From an uncultured Bacilli bacterium (GTDB lineage: Bacteria > Bacillota_I > Bacilli_A > RF39 > UBA660), in the NCBI GenBank assembly GCA_944331935.1, contig CALVIV010000011.1:1-37821 (forward strand): a stretch of 37,821 nucleotides of DNA. The letters run 5' to 3'. Under the pieces are notes generated by a model. The model was not told where the DNA came from. It saw only the letters and a program-made list of their open reading frames with translations, and ran no database searches. Shown piece after piece: positions 32,776 through 36,646 of this stretch. Position 1 is the first letter of the stretch. Each line of letters begins with the position of its first letter. The translations under genes were made by a program, and so were the position numbers.

Positions 32776-32862
32776 GCAGGAATGGCGGAATAGGTAGACG
32801 CACTACTTTGAGGGGGTAGTGATTAGTTAATCGTGCGAGTTCGAGTCTCGTTTCCTGCACCA
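32776..32862 (+). tRNA. tRNA-Leu (anticodon GAG), CCA encoded
   Basis: An 87-base cloverleaf. The acceptor arm GCAGGAA pairs fully with TTCCTGC; the D stem is GCG/CGC; the anticodon stem CTACT/GGTAG encloses the loop TTGAGGG, with anticodon GAG at 32810-32812 (Leu, CUC/CUU). A long variable arm (GATTA/TAATC) is typical of class II tRNAs, and the T arm contains TTCGAGT. The 3' CCA is in the DNA. Accessory sequence follows directly, as is common at tRNA genes. Confidence 0.95.
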
Positions 32863-32962
32863 TTTTAGAAATTTACTGGGACTTTTAAGTTTTATTATAT
32901 TTTGATATTAGTGGAGAGAGCAATAAGTTGCCGAAAAGTGTTCGAATGGATGAAAAATAAAT

Positions 32963-32991
32963 TTGACAAAAAAGCTTTTTTTTGCTATGAT
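32963..32991 (+). promoter_or_regulatory. Strong promoter of short RNA 1
   Basis: TTGACA (32963-32968, perfect), 17-base spacer, TATGAT (32986-32991) with an extended TGC. The predicted start is near 32998. No open reading frame with a ribosome site follows before the hairpin at 33004-33036. The 100 bases between the tRNA and this promoter carry only a fragment of the GAAAAGTG-type repeat (32927-32949). Confidence 0.8.
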
Positions 32992-32997
32992 TTACTC

Positions 32998-33036
32998 GTG
33001 AGCACTGGAGTGGACTAAGGTCTTCCAGTCTTTTTT
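32998..33036 (+). ncRNA. Candidate short RNA 1 upstream of the Abi gene
   Basis: The predicted transcript starts GTGAGC, then a hairpin: ACTGGA (33004-33009) with TCCAGT (33024-33029), an inner GGAC/GTCT helix with TAAG loop, then C and six Ts (33031-33036). This is about 39 bases, ending as a rho-independent terminator. The same design recurs at 33093. Structured RNAs are known upstream of abiF-type genes and act there as RNA antitoxins, so these are candidate antitoxin or guide-like RNAs. It could instead be an attenuator. Confidence 0.62.
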
Positions 33037-33053
33037 GTATATTTTTTAATATT

Positions 33054-33083
33054 TTGAATATATTATTAATGTGGGAATATAAT
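33054..33083 (+). promoter_or_regulatory. Promoter of short RNA 2
   Basis: TTGAAT (33054-33059), 18-base spacer, TATAAT (33078-33083). The -10 lies inside the inverted repeat GGGAA-TATAAT-TTCCC, a possible operator. Confidence 0.6.
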
Positions 33084-33092
33084 TTCCCCTAA

Positions 33093-33127
33093 GTGAGCAC
33101 ACAAAAGATTTTTCTTTTGTGTCTTTT
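33093..33127 (+). ncRNA. Candidate short RNA 2 upstream of the Abi gene
   Basis: It begins GTGAGC (33093-33098) like RNA 1, then a perfect 10-bp hairpin ACACAAAAGA (33099-33108) / TCTTTTGTGT (33113-33122) with a TTTT loop, then C and TTTT. As in RNA 1, the stem opens with AC and closes with GT, followed by C and a T-run. It lies directly before the Abi gene's own -10 box, so it also works as a terminator that insulates that gene. Confidence 0.62.
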
Positions 33128-33128
33128 C

Positions 33129-33137
33129 TGCTATAAT
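33129..33137 (+). promoter_or_regulatory. Extended -10 promoter of the Abi gene
   Basis: TGCTATAAT at 33129-33137, immediately after the T-run of short RNA 2. The matching -35 region falls in the hairpin and is poor. The start codon is 19 bases downstream with AGGTGATG before it, so the leader is very short. Confidence 0.55.
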
Positions 33138-33156
33138 GTTTTATAGGTGATGTGTA

Positions 33157-34086
33157 ATGGCAGAAAAAACATTTTTAACTATTGATGAGCTAATAACCAA
33201 TATTAAATTAAAAAAAATTAATATAAAAAATGAAGATAATGTTAGAAATATTTTAGAAACTAATAATTATTATTTTATTATGGGGTATAAATTTGCCTTT
33301 AAAAATATTGATGGTACTTATAAAGAAAATACTTCTTTTGAAGATATTTATTCATTATACTTGTTTGATAAAATGTTGAAATTAGTTATTTTAGATCCTA
33401 TTCTTGAAATAGAGCAAAAACTTAAAACTATATATATAAATAATTATAGTTTTAGATATGGATTTAAAGTAAATGATATATTAGATAAAAATAATTATGA
33501 TTTATCAAATAATTATTTAGATAATACATTATCAAATTTAAATAAACAGTTAAATGATTTTGGTAATAAAAATAAAGCAGTAATGTTTTATAGAAATAAT
33601 CACTCATTTATTCCTCTGTGGGTATATATGAAAATATTATCATTTGGTATGATTCGTGATATGTTTTATGTATCAAAATCTAACGATAAAGATTATATGA
33701 AAAACAAATTAACTAGCGAGAACATCAATAGTAGTGAAACTGCTAATATGTTAAGATTACTTGTTAGAGTGAGAAATATTTGTTGCCATGATGATATATT
33801 ATTATCATTTGTAGATGATAAATTAGGCATAAAAACTACAAAATATCATAAAGAATTTAACTTAAAGAAAGATAGAAATACCAACATTATTCAAGGAAAA
33901 AAAGATTTGCTTGCTATTTTAATCTCTATAAAGTTTTTTTCTACTCGCAAGAAGTTTAATGTTTTAATAGATAATTTATCAAAATTAATAAATGAGTATG
34001 ACAAGAAAATTGGTTCATTAAATAGAAAGCAATTATTGTCAATAATGCATTTGCCAGAAGATTTTGAAATATTAAAAAAATTATAA
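33157..34086 (+). CDS. Abi_2 / AbiF-AbiD-type HEPN protein
   Basis: 309 residues. The N-terminus has TIDELITNIKLKKI and ILETNNYYFIMGYKFAF, then FEDIYSLYLFDKMLKLVILD and PILEIEQKLKT, the recurring blocks of the Abi_2 family (abortive infection proteins AbiD, AbiF). The motif RNICCH (R206 to H211) in VRVRNICCHDD is the R-x4-H signature of HEPN ribonucleases. Family members stop phage growth, probably by RNA cleavage, and AbiF proteins are reported to be paired with an upstream structured RNA and to be related to Cas13. Two short RNAs precede it here. The gene has lower GC than its neighbours and sits beside a tRNA, suggesting acquisition. Cytoplasmic; no membrane helix. Confidence 0.87.
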   Translation: MAEKTFLTIDELITNIKLKKINIKNEDNVRNILETNNYYFIMGYKFAFKNIDGTYKENTSFEDIYSLYLFDKMLKLVILDPILEIEQKLKTIYINNYSFRYGFKVNDILDKNNYDLSNNYLDNTLSNLNKQLNDFGNKNKAVMFYRNNHSFIPLWVYMKILSFGMIRDMFYVSKSNDKDYMKNKLTSENINSSETANMLRLLVRVRNICCHDDILLSFVDDKLGIKTTKYHKEFNLKKDRNTNIIQGKKDLLAILISIKFFSTRKKFNVLIDNLSKLINEYDKKIGSLNRKQLLSIMHLPEDFEILKKL

Positions 34087-34234
34087 TCAAAATATAAATT
34101 CATAGTAAAATAAATGTATAATTGATATATTTATTTGCTATATTTTTAACTAAAGGAAATGGTAAAAATACAATATATGTTTTAAAATGAATGATTAAAT
34201 GTGAAAGTTAATCAATTTATTATTTTACCAACTA

Positions 34235-34243
34235 TGGTATAGT
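34235..34243 (+). promoter_or_regulatory. Extended -10 promoter of a third short RNA
   Basis: TGGTATAGT: TG at 34235-34236 plus TATAGT at 34238-34243. The -35 region is only T-rich. Predicted start near 34250. The stretch 34087-34234 otherwise shows nothing recognisable. Confidence 0.5.
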
Positions 34244-34249
34244 ATAAAT

Positions 34250-34316
34250 GTTAATGGCGATGGTGTGTCTTCGGATCCCATCTATGCAAGTTAGATGCGT
34301 CTAGTTTGCTTTTTAT
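34250..34316 (+). ncRNA. Candidate structured small RNA downstream of the Abi gene
   Basis: Two hairpins follow the promoter. The first pairs GATGG (34259-34263) with CCATC (34278-34282) and is capped by a C-TTCG-G tetraloop (34269-34274), a very stable RNA loop. The second pairs GCAAGTTAGA (34286-34295) with TCTAGTTTGC (34300-34309, two G-T pairs), loop TGCG, followed by TTTTTATTTTT, a good terminator. No reading frame fits. The first hairpin, with its imperfect stem and stable loop, is more than a terminator needs, so I call a ~67-base RNA of unknown role. It shares no clear sequence with the two RNAs upstream. Confidence 0.6.
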
Positions 34317-34327
34317 TTTTAGTTTTT

Positions 34328-34450
34328 ATGACAAAAGTGGTCGAAAAGTGGTCGAAAAGTGGTCGAAAAGTGGTCGAAAGGTTGCTGAAAAGAATTGATA
34401 ATTTTAAATATAAAGAAAAAAGCATAAGAGATACTATACTTTTTATGTAA
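34328..34450 (+). other. 40-codon ORF built on the 11-bp repeats, likely a gene remnant
   Basis: ATG at 34328 to TAA at 34448. The product begins MTKVVEKWSKSGRKVVER and ends with KEKSIRDTILF. Repeats of the KVVEKWSKSGRK kind recall the C-terminal tails of AlbA_2-type DNA-binding/ATPase regulators in gut Bacillota; this is from memory and not certain. There is no ribosome site (TTTTTAGTTTTT precedes the ATG), so it is probably a leftover 3' end. Confidence 0.4.
34333..34387 (+). repeat. Tandem 11-bp repeats AAAAGTGGTCG
   Basis: Four perfect consecutive copies at 34333-34376 and a fifth degenerate one (AAAGGTTGCTG) at 34377-34387. Related sequence (GTTGCCGAAAAGTGTTCGAA, 32927-32946) lies on the other side of the Abi gene. 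Confidence 0.9.
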
Positions 34451-34519
34451 TAATTTGTAATTATTTATTTTAAAGCTTCATTTCATAAAAATGATTATGG
34501 TAATGCCTAATAGTATATT

Positions 34520-34957
34520 TTATTTTTTTCTTGGCTTTAAAACTTTAGCAGTGCCTTTATTTGTAGTTGCTAAATTTCCTTGTTTTTTTAAACCTAATGT
34601 TTGATAAAAGATTTCTTCCATTTTATCAGGGCTATCTACTATTTCGTTTTCTTTGTAATAAGTTATTAGTTTACTGATAGCATCTTCTATTGTATTAAAT
34701 TCCTCATATTCAAATTTTGATGCTCTATCGATAACATAAAATTTAAAGATGTCATCTGTTTCTTCTAAACAGATATCACCCAATCCAAAATTAATACTTG
34801 GTCCTAAATATGGTAAATATTGTATAGTTAATTCTTTTTTTAATCGTTTATAAATAATATCATTATTTTCATTTGTAAAATATTTTCTTTTAGAGTTGTT
34901 ATTACCAATAGTATTATCAAAAGATTCATTTATTATTTTTTTCATAAAAGCTTTCAT
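34520..34957 (-). CDS. 145-residue protein of unknown function
   Basis: Charged, soluble, no signal or membrane helix. It has a basic/Asn-rich N-terminus, a central beta-like part (YLPYLGPSINFGLGDICLEE, FYVIDRASKFEYEEF), an acidic helix and a basic C-terminus (NKGTAKVLKPRKK). I do not recognise a family; the size and acidic middle recall immunity or phage-borne small proteins, but that is weak. The first ATG (34957) directly abuts AAGGA, though AAGAAG further up could serve it; the ATG at 34945 (MKKIINESF) is an alternative. It has its own promoter and points toward the Abi island. Confidence 0.7.
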   Translation of the reverse strand: MKAFMKKIINESFDNTIGNNNSKRKYFTNENNDIIYKRLKKELTIQYLPYLGPSINFGLGDICLEETDDIFKFYVIDRASKFEYEEFNTIEDAISKLITYYKENEIVDSPDKMEEIFYQTLGLKKQGNLATTNKGTAKVLKPRKK

Positions 34958-34978
34958 TCCTTTCTTCTTTGATATTAT

Positions 34979-35006
34979 ATTATAACAGAGATTTCATATT
35001 TGTAAA
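34979..35006 (-). promoter_or_regulatory. Promoter of the 145-residue protein gene
   Basis: On the - strand: TTTACA (35006-35001), 16-base spacer, TATAAT (34984-34979) with an extended TG. Confidence 0.65.
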
Positions 35007-35113
35007 CTTTTTATTTTCTGTACTTTTCCGGATAAATTTATGGTTATTTCCAGTTATTTTAATCAAATTATAAAAGATATAATTGTTAATTTTTTCCAAT
35101 TGATTAAAACCAC

Positions 35114-35142
35114 TTTTCACGAATAAATGTTCGTGATAAAAT
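35114..35142 (+). promoter_or_regulatory. umuC-like promoter with LexA (SOS) operator in its spacer
   Basis: -35 TTTTCA (35114-35119), 17-base spacer, extended -10 TGATAAAAT (TAAAAT 35137-35142). The spacer is filled by CGAATAAATGTTCG (35120-35133), 12 of 14 matches to the Gram-positive LexA box CGAACATATGTTCG, within a longer palindrome CACGAA...TTCGTG (35118-35135). LexA bound here would block RNA polymerase, so the polymerase should be induced by DNA damage. Confidence 0.82.
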
Positions 35143-35158
35143 AATTATGGTGAGTTAG

Positions 35159-36646
35159 ATGGAAAAGGTATATAGTTGTATTGATTTAAAGAGTTTTTAT
35201 GCATCAGTAGAATGTGTAGAAAGAGGACTTAATCCCTTAAAAACTAATCTTGTTGTTGCCGATAAATCTAGAACAGAAAAGACAATTTGTTTAGCGGTAA
35301 GTCCATCTTTAAAACAGTATGGTATTCCTGGAAGGGCAAGATTATTTGAAGTTTTAAGTAAAGTAAAAGAGATTAATAAAAAAAGAAGAAAAGAAAATGG
35401 TTATAAAAAGTTTAGTGGTAAATCTGTTAATGATGATATCTTAAAGAAAGATAAGACTAAAGAATTAGATTTAATTATCGCTCCTCCTAGAATGGCTCAT
35501 TATATTGACTATTCTGCTAAAATATATAATATCTATTTAAAGTACATTGCTAAAGAAGATATATTTGTTTATTCTATTGATGAAGTCTTTATGGATATAA
35601 CTAATTACTTAAAGTACTATAAACTATCTCCTAAAGACTTAATTACAAAAATAATTAAAGATGTTTATGATACAACGGGTATTACAGCGGCAGGGGGAAT
35701 TGGCACTAACTTATTTCTTGCTAAAGTTGCTATGGATGTAGTAGCAAAACACATCACACCTAATAAGTTTGGAGTAAGAATTGCCGAACTTAATGAAATG
35801 TCTTATAGAAAAATGTTATGGAATCATGTGCCTATTACAGATATTTGGCGAGTAGGTAAGGGTATTTCTAAAAGATTAGAGAAGTATGGTATGTATACAA
35901 TGGGTGATGTGGCAAGATGCTCTATTAATAATGAAGACTTGTTATATAAATTATTTGGAGTTAATGCTGAGCTTTTAATAGACCATGCTTGGGGTTATGA
36001 GCCTTGTACAATAGAATCTATTAAAAACTATAAACCACTTGCTAAAAGCATAAGTTCTGGTCAAGTTTTACAAAGCCCATATTCATATGATAAAGCTAAG
36101 TTAATAGTAAGAGAAATGGCAGAGTTACTAGCTTTAGACCTTGTCTCTAAAAAACTAGTATCAGAACAGTTAGTATTAACTATTGGTTATGATATAGAAA
36201 ATGTTACTGATGATTATAATGGGAGTGTTACAATAGATTATTATGGACGGGCTATACCCAAACACGCTCATGGAACTATTAATTTAGAGTATAAAACATC
36301 ATCATCTAAAATAATTACAGAAGCGATGATTAAGTTATATGATGAGATAATAAATCCTAAACTATCTGTTAGAAGAGTTACTATGGCTGCTACAAAGCTA
36401 GCAAGTGAAGAGGAAGAAAAAGGTAAAGTTAGATATAGACAGTTAGATTTGTTTTCTAGTCTAGATGATGAAAATAATAAGTTAGATTATGATAGAGAAG
36501 TCTTAAAGGAAGAAAATAATCTTCAAAATGCTATGTTAAAGATAAAAGAAAAGTATGGGAAAAATGCTATTTTGAAAGGTATGGATTTAGAAGATGGGGC
36601 AACAACAAGGGATAGAAATAGGCAGATAGGAGGACATCATGAATAA
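35159..36646 (+). CDS. Y-family DNA polymerase, UmuC/UvrX-like
   Basis: 495 residues, longer than DinB/PolIV and typical of the UmuC/UvrX branch. The start CIDLKSFYASVECVERG has the first metal-binding Asp; VYSIDEVFMDIT carries the second acidic pair; GIGTNLFLAKVAMDVVAK is the thumb/fingers boundary; DIWRVGKGISKRLEKYGMYT is the helix-hairpin-helix region; the little-finger domain follows from ~300. It ends with an Arg/Gly-rich tail. Such enzymes copy past damaged bases and are error-prone. Control by the LexA-type box at 35120 and overlap (8 bases) with a YolD gene match the known uvrX-yolD arrangement on Bacillus phages, plasmids and chromosomes. Confidence 0.93.
   Translation: MEKVYSCIDLKSFYASVECVERGLNPLKTNLVVADKSRTEKTICLAVSPSLKQYGIPGRARLFEVLSKVKEINKKRRKENGYKKFSGKSVNDDILKKDKTKELDLIIAPPRMAHYIDYSAKIYNIYLKYIAKEDIFVYSIDEVFMDITNYLKYYKLSPKDLITKIIKDVYDTTGITAAGGIGTNLFLAKVAMDVVAKHITPNKFGVRIAELNEMSYRKMLWNHVPITDIWRVGKGISKRLEKYGMYTMGDVARCSINNEDLLYKLFGVNAELLIDHAWGYEPCTIESIKNYKPLAKSISSGQVLQSPYSYDKAKLIVREMAELLALDLVSKKLVSEQLVLTIGYDIENVTDDYNGSVTIDYYGRAIPKHAHGTINLEYKTSSSKIITEAMIKLYDEIINPKLSVRRVTMAATKLASEEEEKGKVRYRQLDLFSSLDDENNKLDYDREVLKEENNLQNAMLKIKEKYGKNAILKGMDLEDGATTRDRNRQIGGHHE

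Follow-up and report, generated by a model that had tools for sequence, protein, structure and literature searches.

Twin small RNA units ahead of an AbiF-type HEPN toxin gene in an uncultured Bacilli bacterium and their solitary relatives in bacteria and phages

What do two small RNA units do ahead of an AbiF-type toxin gene, and what becomes of such RNAs where the gene is missing? We asked this of a single window, that is, the whole 37,821-nucleotide stretch of contig CALVIV010000011.1 (assembly GCA_944331935.1) from an uncultured Bacilli bacterium (Table 1). A first-pass annotation had described two tandem units, each consisting of GTGAGC, a hairpin that opens with AC and closes with GT, a C, and a T-run, and we found the parts and their places as claimed. 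The shared 8-mer GTGAGCAC is likewise exact in both units and occurs at no other site on either strand of the 37.8-kb window. A search for pairs of identical 8-mers within 150 nt, both running into a stem of 6 bp or more and then a T-run, matched this pair alone in the window and nothing in 60 whole-window dinucleotide shuffles. Both units fold well, with z-scores of -2.1 for unit 1 and -4.0 for unit 2.

Table 1. Positions of the features discussed in the text, in window coordinates.
Feature	Position	Strand	Details
Predicted sigma-70 promoter, unit 1	32963..32991	+	TTGACA-17-TATGAT; TTGAC and spacing kept in seven orthologues
RNA unit 1	32998..33036	+	GTGAGC-ACTGGAGTGGACTAAGGTCTTCCAGT-C-TTTTTT
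Unit 1 hairpin	33004-33029	+	ACUGGAG-UG bulge-GAC-UAAG-GUC-UUCCAGU, between tag GUGAGC and C + U-run
Predicted promoter, unit 2	33054..33083	+	TTGAAT-18-TATAAT; TATAAT kept in most orthologues
Inverted repeat just 5' of unit 2 tag	33071..33089	+	GUGGGAA-UAUAA-UUUCCCC
RNA unit 2	33093..33127	+	GTGAGC-ACACAAAAGATTTTTCTTTTGTGT-C-TTTT; also terminator-like
Unit 2 hairpin	33099-33122	+	10 bp, between tag GUGAGC and C + U-run
Extended -10 of abiF mRNA	33129..33137	+	TGCTATAAT; directly 3' of unit 2 U-run; TGnTATAAT in 8/8 orthologues
abiF/abiD-type HEPN ribonuclease toxin gene (predicted)	33157..34086	+	309 aa; R206-N-I-C-C-H211
LexA-like box of downstream SOS operon	35118..35135	+	CACGAATAAATGTTCGTG; right edge of variable slot
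Y-family DNA polymerase (UvrX/UmuC-like)	35159..36646	+	Pfam IMS 9.5e-27

The protein encoded behind the two units matches Pfam Abi_2 (PF07751) with an E value of 1.3e-33 (117.3 bits against a cut-off of 25.6) and is assigned to AbiD by PADLOC (5.8e-43). Its only clear relative of solved structure is PbAbiF with RNA (PDB 8VZ6; sequence match 6.7e-12), and with the AlphaFold model (pLDDT 93.5) as a query, 8vz6_A was the only significant PDB match returned by Foldseek (TM 0.76, E 3.4e-10). R206, N207, and H211 are invariant among 19 homologues, and the HEPN motif R-N-x3-H is aligned with RNSCCH of 8VZ6. Judged by its sequence and predicted structure, the window protein is a PbAbiF-like HEPN RNase, which bears out the claim of an Abi_2/HEPN protein with small structured RNAs directly upstream. 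The window's genome holds a second abiF (L072, G000:C31) that is 34% identical to the first and is accompanied by a single and different unit, GUAAGUGA followed by UCUUCGGU...ACCGAAGA and CUUUUU. In addition, an Abi_2 protein of about 31% identity with R-N-x3-H is present in 268 of 291 genomes of the family (e.g., L073 at G000:C8:35024-35938), and this near-universal paralogue looks domesticated.

A promoter had also been claimed for each unit. Promoters are indeed predicted for both, with scores of 11/12 for unit 1 and 10/12 for unit 2, the latter with a weak -35, but there is no excess of promoter-like sites as a class over shuffles (17 versus 14.7). Transcription beginning at GTGAGC itself fits unit 1, where G32998 is the seventh base past the -10, but is less secure for unit 2, where 9 nt separate GTGAGC from the end of the -10 box and the start probably lies 2-3 nt earlier than the tag. 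The inverted repeat in front of unit 2, one pair of which is A-U in six orthologues, G-U in one, and G-C in one, may be an RNA hairpin or a palindromic promoter element, and a similar repeat of other sequence precedes unit 2 in L043, L047, L015, and L126. Given the distance of the -10, the pair change, and the similar repeats in other clades, the transcript of unit 2 may begin further 5' and include a hairpin there, in which case it may be some 55-60 nt long, longer than unit 2 itself. In the predicted fold, the AG of the tag pairs with a CU on the 3' side of the hairpin around one bulged base. This speaks against the idea that two tags pair with each other through GTG/CAC, an arrangement that could not be general, as the tags of L017, L047, and L126 have no such self-complementarity. 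Two other kinds of sequence are found near the units. A further small-RNA-like element, GGCGATGGTGTGTCTTCGGATCCCATC...GCAAGTTAGATGCGTCTAGTTTGC with a T-run, lies at window positions 34250-34319 and recurs in L154 (reverse strand, ~1406-1475) and in G331, where it separates an Abi_2 gene from a class II unit (see below). Short tandem repeats of the type (C/T)CGAAAAGTGG stand beside RNA units at 34338-34381 and 32928-32950 of the window, as well as in L008, L077, and L083.

Comparison with other genomes, nearly all of them metagenome-assembled, shows that the units are conserved. Orthologues of abiF with 81-91% amino-acid identity occur in seven other genomes, and in all seven both units, the exact GTGAGCAC, and TGnTATAAT are kept, while the left flanks mostly differ; an alignment of homologues, proposed earlier as a check, thus favors GTGAGC and hairpin as lasting parts of the locus. 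Across the eight orthologues, the proportion of invariant columns is 81% in unit 1 and 93% in unit 2, compared with 52% in the spacer, 51% in the promoter region, and 45% at third codon positions, and the tag is exact in 16 of 16 units. AbiF relatives at 34-50% identity have units of like build with different tags: GUUCAGA in L014, L043, and L044 (two units each) and in L045 (one unit, so that copy number does vary among homologues, as had been anticipated), GUUAGU/GGUUGU in L015, GUCUAGU in L047, GUCUAGG in L126, and GUUCAGUG in L017. The tag is exact in both units in five of the six two-unit clades. How alike the two hairpins of a locus are varies by clade, from identity to no relation, a pattern suggestive of duplication with later divergence. 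That the hairpin bodies differ completely is hence accurate for the window's clade but not for other clades, in which they are alike or identical.

The stem is also supported by covariation. For 21 units of six clades, the score was 0.466, compared with 0.225 for shuffles and no more than 0.087 after sliding, and the stem contains 25 two-sided changes. The AG:CU pairs with their one bulged base are found in the predicted folds of most units across clades and are supported by conservation, without two-sided changes. A covariance model of the units (R1) scored 24-49 bits at units of this AbiF subfamily and did not exceed 18.2 bits across about 40 loci of the Abi_2 paralogue with ~31% identity. 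Weak R1 matches elsewhere (E 0.0005-0.05; L086, L088-L099) were mostly taken as chance.

From these sequences and by analogy with studied relatives, we think it probable that the locus is a phage-defence and toxin-antitoxin module of a type III-like kind, in which the RNA antitoxin is present twice. The abiF product would be a dimeric HEPN RNase, and two small RNAs, some 40 nt long or, for unit 2, perhaps some 60, each with its own predicted promoter and an end formed by hairpin and U-run, would both attach to the toxin and hold it in an inactive state; having two of them suits a dimeric toxin with two bound RNAs. The protein would recognise the 5' tag, with its AG:CU pairing and bulged base, together with the hairpin. 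If the supply of RNA fell, for example upon takeover by a phage, the toxin would be freed to cut RNA.

Other roles for the twin RNAs can be weighed against this proposal. It is unlikely that the hairpins are merely tandem terminators or attenuators of the abiF mRNA, with no free RNA acting on the protein. Each is followed by a U-run, unit 2 is scored as a terminator, and RCd22, the RNA of a studied AbiF system from Clostridioides difficile, itself works also through premature termination (PMC12373285). Termination, however, does not need a conserved 5' tag, let alone one that changes jointly in both units in other clades; abiF has a -10 of its own past unit 2, and solitary units with their own promoters exist where the toxin gene is absent. 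Still less credit is due to RNAs that activate or sense, such that AbiF would be off alone and on with RNA, or on once phage RNA displaces it. Position and conservation are equally compatible with inhibition and activation, but in the two AbiF systems examined to date the RNA inhibits the protein (PMC12373285; PbAbiF as reviewed in PMC12737573), which makes activation quite improbable here. The proposal that AbiF is an ancestor of Cas13 (PMC12373285, PMC12737573), along with a constant 5' end on differing bodies, might recall guides in which the tag is a handle and the hairpin region a variable guide against phage RNA. We regard this as very improbable, because the bodies are paired stems with compensatory changes that are conserved across genera, and spacer-like turnover is absent. 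The first-pass annotation's idea of a constant tag with a variable hairpin as the principle of recognition loses its footing for similar reasons: the hairpins, being conserved across genera and alike in other clades, are not interchangeable modules.

The antitoxin proposal leads to the second part of our question, since units with promoters of their own allow the toxin gene to go while the RNA stays. Among 148 related genomes searched with R1, five of the same genus (G951, G401, G942, G957, and G319) have a solitary unit 1, scoring 39.8-49.8 bits. A tblastn search detected no AbiF near any of the five copies, and elsewhere their genomes have only Abi_2 proteins of 30-33% identity. Where abiF would stand, 60-100 nt 3' of the unit, there is a Y-family polymerase gene with a LexA-like box. 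The left flank in G942 is near-identical to that of the window and the polymerase lies downstream in both, so that we see one site in two states, one having and one lacking unit 2, abiF, and the genes that follow. Tag and stem are intact in all five despite differing left flanks. Two of the five retain an intact promoter, whereas that of G942 is weakened and those of G957 and G319 are shortened; the damage amounts to a spacing cut to 12 nt (L104/L105) or a -10 of TATGGT (L106). With promoters in this mixed state, the solitary class I units may be working RNAs or relics, and their function is doubtful where the promoter is damaged. The slot before uvrX/umuC (window 32860-35117; L101-L124) has different content in nearly every genome, and by this sequence record the interval between the left neighbours and the SOS polymerase gene is a hotspot. 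The left neighbour is tRNA-Leu in the window and in L102. Between abiF and the polymerase, the window also has a minus-strand gene of 145 aa without a Pfam match (34520-34957), and a similar stretch is found in the slot of L109 and L119.

The polymerase slot of seven other genomes contains a different solitary unit with its own promoter, CCUAGG-AAACUUUAGAAGC-CCUAGG. This class II RNA belongs to another group of AbiF proteins, about 30-36% identical to the window's. Its stems covary, being 98% paired with two-sided changes at four pairs, and a model of it (R3) detected the RNA in 41 of 148 genomes; among 117 genomes of the phylum, class II had no match in other families. At many class II loci, abiF stands between two units about 955 nt apart, one 5' of the start and one just 3' of the stop. 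Surroundings were read for 44 class II sites above 46 bits, some of them near contig ends: 21 showed AbiF homology, and 23, scoring 46-67 bits, had no detected toxin gene. Five of the solitary class II units (L192, L202, L227, L232, and L233) are hybrids. Their left flank resembles that of upstream-type units (0.76-0.92) rather than downstream-type units (0.28-0.41), their right flank resembles that of downstream-type units (0.70-0.96) rather than upstream-type units (0.12-0.34), and none showed the opposite combination. We infer from these flanks that the hybrids are what recombination between flanking units is expected to produce, with the toxin gene gone and one promoter and RNA left. A cassette that had inserted into a solitary unit would give an identical picture, and the direction, that of loss, is our interpretation. 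An origin in assembly chimeras is improbable, given that G045 holds a single class II unit and that neither unit of G187 is accompanied by a toxin gene. We rejected the class II unit L217 of the window's genome as solitary, as the end of an AbiF gene lies at the contig start, and we dropped a stem change in L114 as a case of compensation in a solitary unit, as downstream-type units share the pair, which may reflect ancestry. Two variants of the class II locus were also seen. In L162, L165, and L167, two more hairpin units (GUAGAAGAGG.../GUAGAAGAAGUGG...), each preceded by a promoter-like stretch, come before the class II unit upstream of abiF, making an array of different RNA units; in L197 (G957:C3), a class II AbiF has an internal deletion and both flanking units are kept.

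Class II RNA also occurs in phages. A search of IMG/VR with an exact core pattern found four phage contigs, all with GAAC(G/A)UACCCCGGAAACUUUCGAAGCCCGGGGUC (phage hairpin GAACGUACCCCGGAAACUUUCGAAGCCCGGGGUC) and scoring 44-48 bits with R3, and as two of the contigs (L173 and L175) are close relatives, they represent about three lineages. The RNA is in the same place in all four, before the phrog_4282 gene in an apparent tail region, and no AbiF is present at these loci. The 34 nt of the RNA are 91-97% identical, an identity that for the core was partly set by the search pattern but was free for tag and outer stem, whereas the 300 nt upstream align poorly and the proteins downstream share 36-40% between distinct lineages. 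Relatives of the tail gene carry plain terminators at this position, which shows that phages do not have the element in general. Further class II patterns and the pattern of the window's own RNA class gave nothing in IMG/VR, no close relatives of AbiF were found in viral contigs, and a blastn search of named phages and plasmids for class II RNA was negative. By analogy with pseudo-ToxI, a phage-borne antitoxin mimic known for ToxIN (PMC3475682), the phage class II RNA may be a candidate anti-AbiF mimic, perhaps switching the toxin off.

How far do the solitary RNAs still work? That those in toxin-free genomes are functionless, decaying relics, a matter that concerns solitary units and not the window locus, has in our estimation a little less than an even chance. 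Decay does occur beside broken toxin genes, with mutated tags next to an abiF remnant in L085 (G044) and the tag AUGAGC at a locus with an apparent frameshift in L084 (G952), and it has reached the promoters of L104/L105 and L106. Set against this are the intact tags and stems of the five class I units despite their changed left flanks, the high scores of the 23 class II sites, and the promoter TTTACA-17-TATAAT retained in L113/L115. As part of the reading favored above, the toxin gene of class II would be lost by recombination between its flanking units; at the window's site, what stays behind in relatives is unit 1 on its own. A broader scenario, less likely than not, has toxin cassettes that are prone to loss and bounded by their own antitoxin RNAs. 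Such recombination would leave one complete RNA gene, so that loss of the toxin would not be punished by freed toxin. The solitary RNAs might then immunise a lineage against incoming AbiF, and the RNA in the phage tail operon might act as an anti-AbiF mimic.

Few AbiF RNAs have been studied, and this locus and its relatives add several natural pairs of toxin and RNA. They offer a readable code, in that tags change by clade and are usually the same in both units. The hybrid scars, if we interpret them correctly, reveal a way for toxin genes to depart while the antitoxin stays, and the phage copies can be tested directly as counter-defence. What AbiF reads in its RNA and how RNA-antitoxin systems are lost could thus be brought within reach of simple plasmid experiments. 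Going by sequence, the solitary units, hybrid scars, and phage copies go beyond the published systems that we found, although absence from the literature searched is not proof of novelty.

Among known systems, the closest is AbiF-RCd22 of C. difficile phi027, which shares an Abi_2 HEPN toxin and two hairpin motifs directly upstream. RCd22, with two abiF motifs of 33 and 35 nt on one transcript, binds and neutralises AbiF (PMC12373285), so that neither RNA neutralisation nor two copies are new, and the suggestion that two copies of such short RNAs would be unusual falls away. The RNA itself and the predicted separate promoters do differ from published RCd22. RCd22 is one transcript of 98-132 nt from one promoter, with motifs of the RF03085 type that have a 3' internal loop GCUCAAAU; the window units have separate predicted promoters and U-runs, and a 5' tag. 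A search with the published abiF RNA model, RF03085, found nothing in 32860-33170 even at E 10, nor any match in the window's genome, while the positive control, C. difficile phage phiC2, matched at 37.6 and 19.5 bits, which rules out membership for the window RNA. Further AbiF RNA covariance models exist (AbiF5_iter3.CM and diverse_rna_xinsi.CM, Zilberzwige-Tal et al. 2025, noted in PMC12804078), so the window RNA may already have been described. PbAbiF-AbiFr (8VZ6) shares the fold and the R-N-x3-H site, and we liken the window AbiF to its dimer, which binds two RNAs; a difference lies in its RNA, for which C32 and U38 are described in a single-stranded bulge (Cell 2025 paper of Zilberzwige-Tal et al., as cited by others). 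ToxIN, of type III, has in common an RNase toxin and a repeated upstream RNA antitoxin (~36 nt in ToxIN), but toxin fold and RNA are unrelated and the ToxIN toxin itself processes the repeats out of a single transcript. Type III systems co-transcribe antitoxin RNA and toxin across an intervening terminator; in the window the terminator-like unit 2 occupies that position, but the extended -10 of abiF lies 3' of it. RNA anti-CRISPRs (Racr, PMC10651486) resemble the phage class II RNA as solitary, phage-borne mimics of a defence RNA, yet they mimic CRISPR repeats rather than the antitoxin of a toxin. The variable spacers of CRISPR-Cas13 have no counterpart in hairpin bodies that are conserved across genera. 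With a repeated small RNA directly upstream of a gene for an RNase-fold toxin, as in type III systems, the window locus is in our judgment likely to be an AbiF/RNA type III-like system with another RNA architecture.
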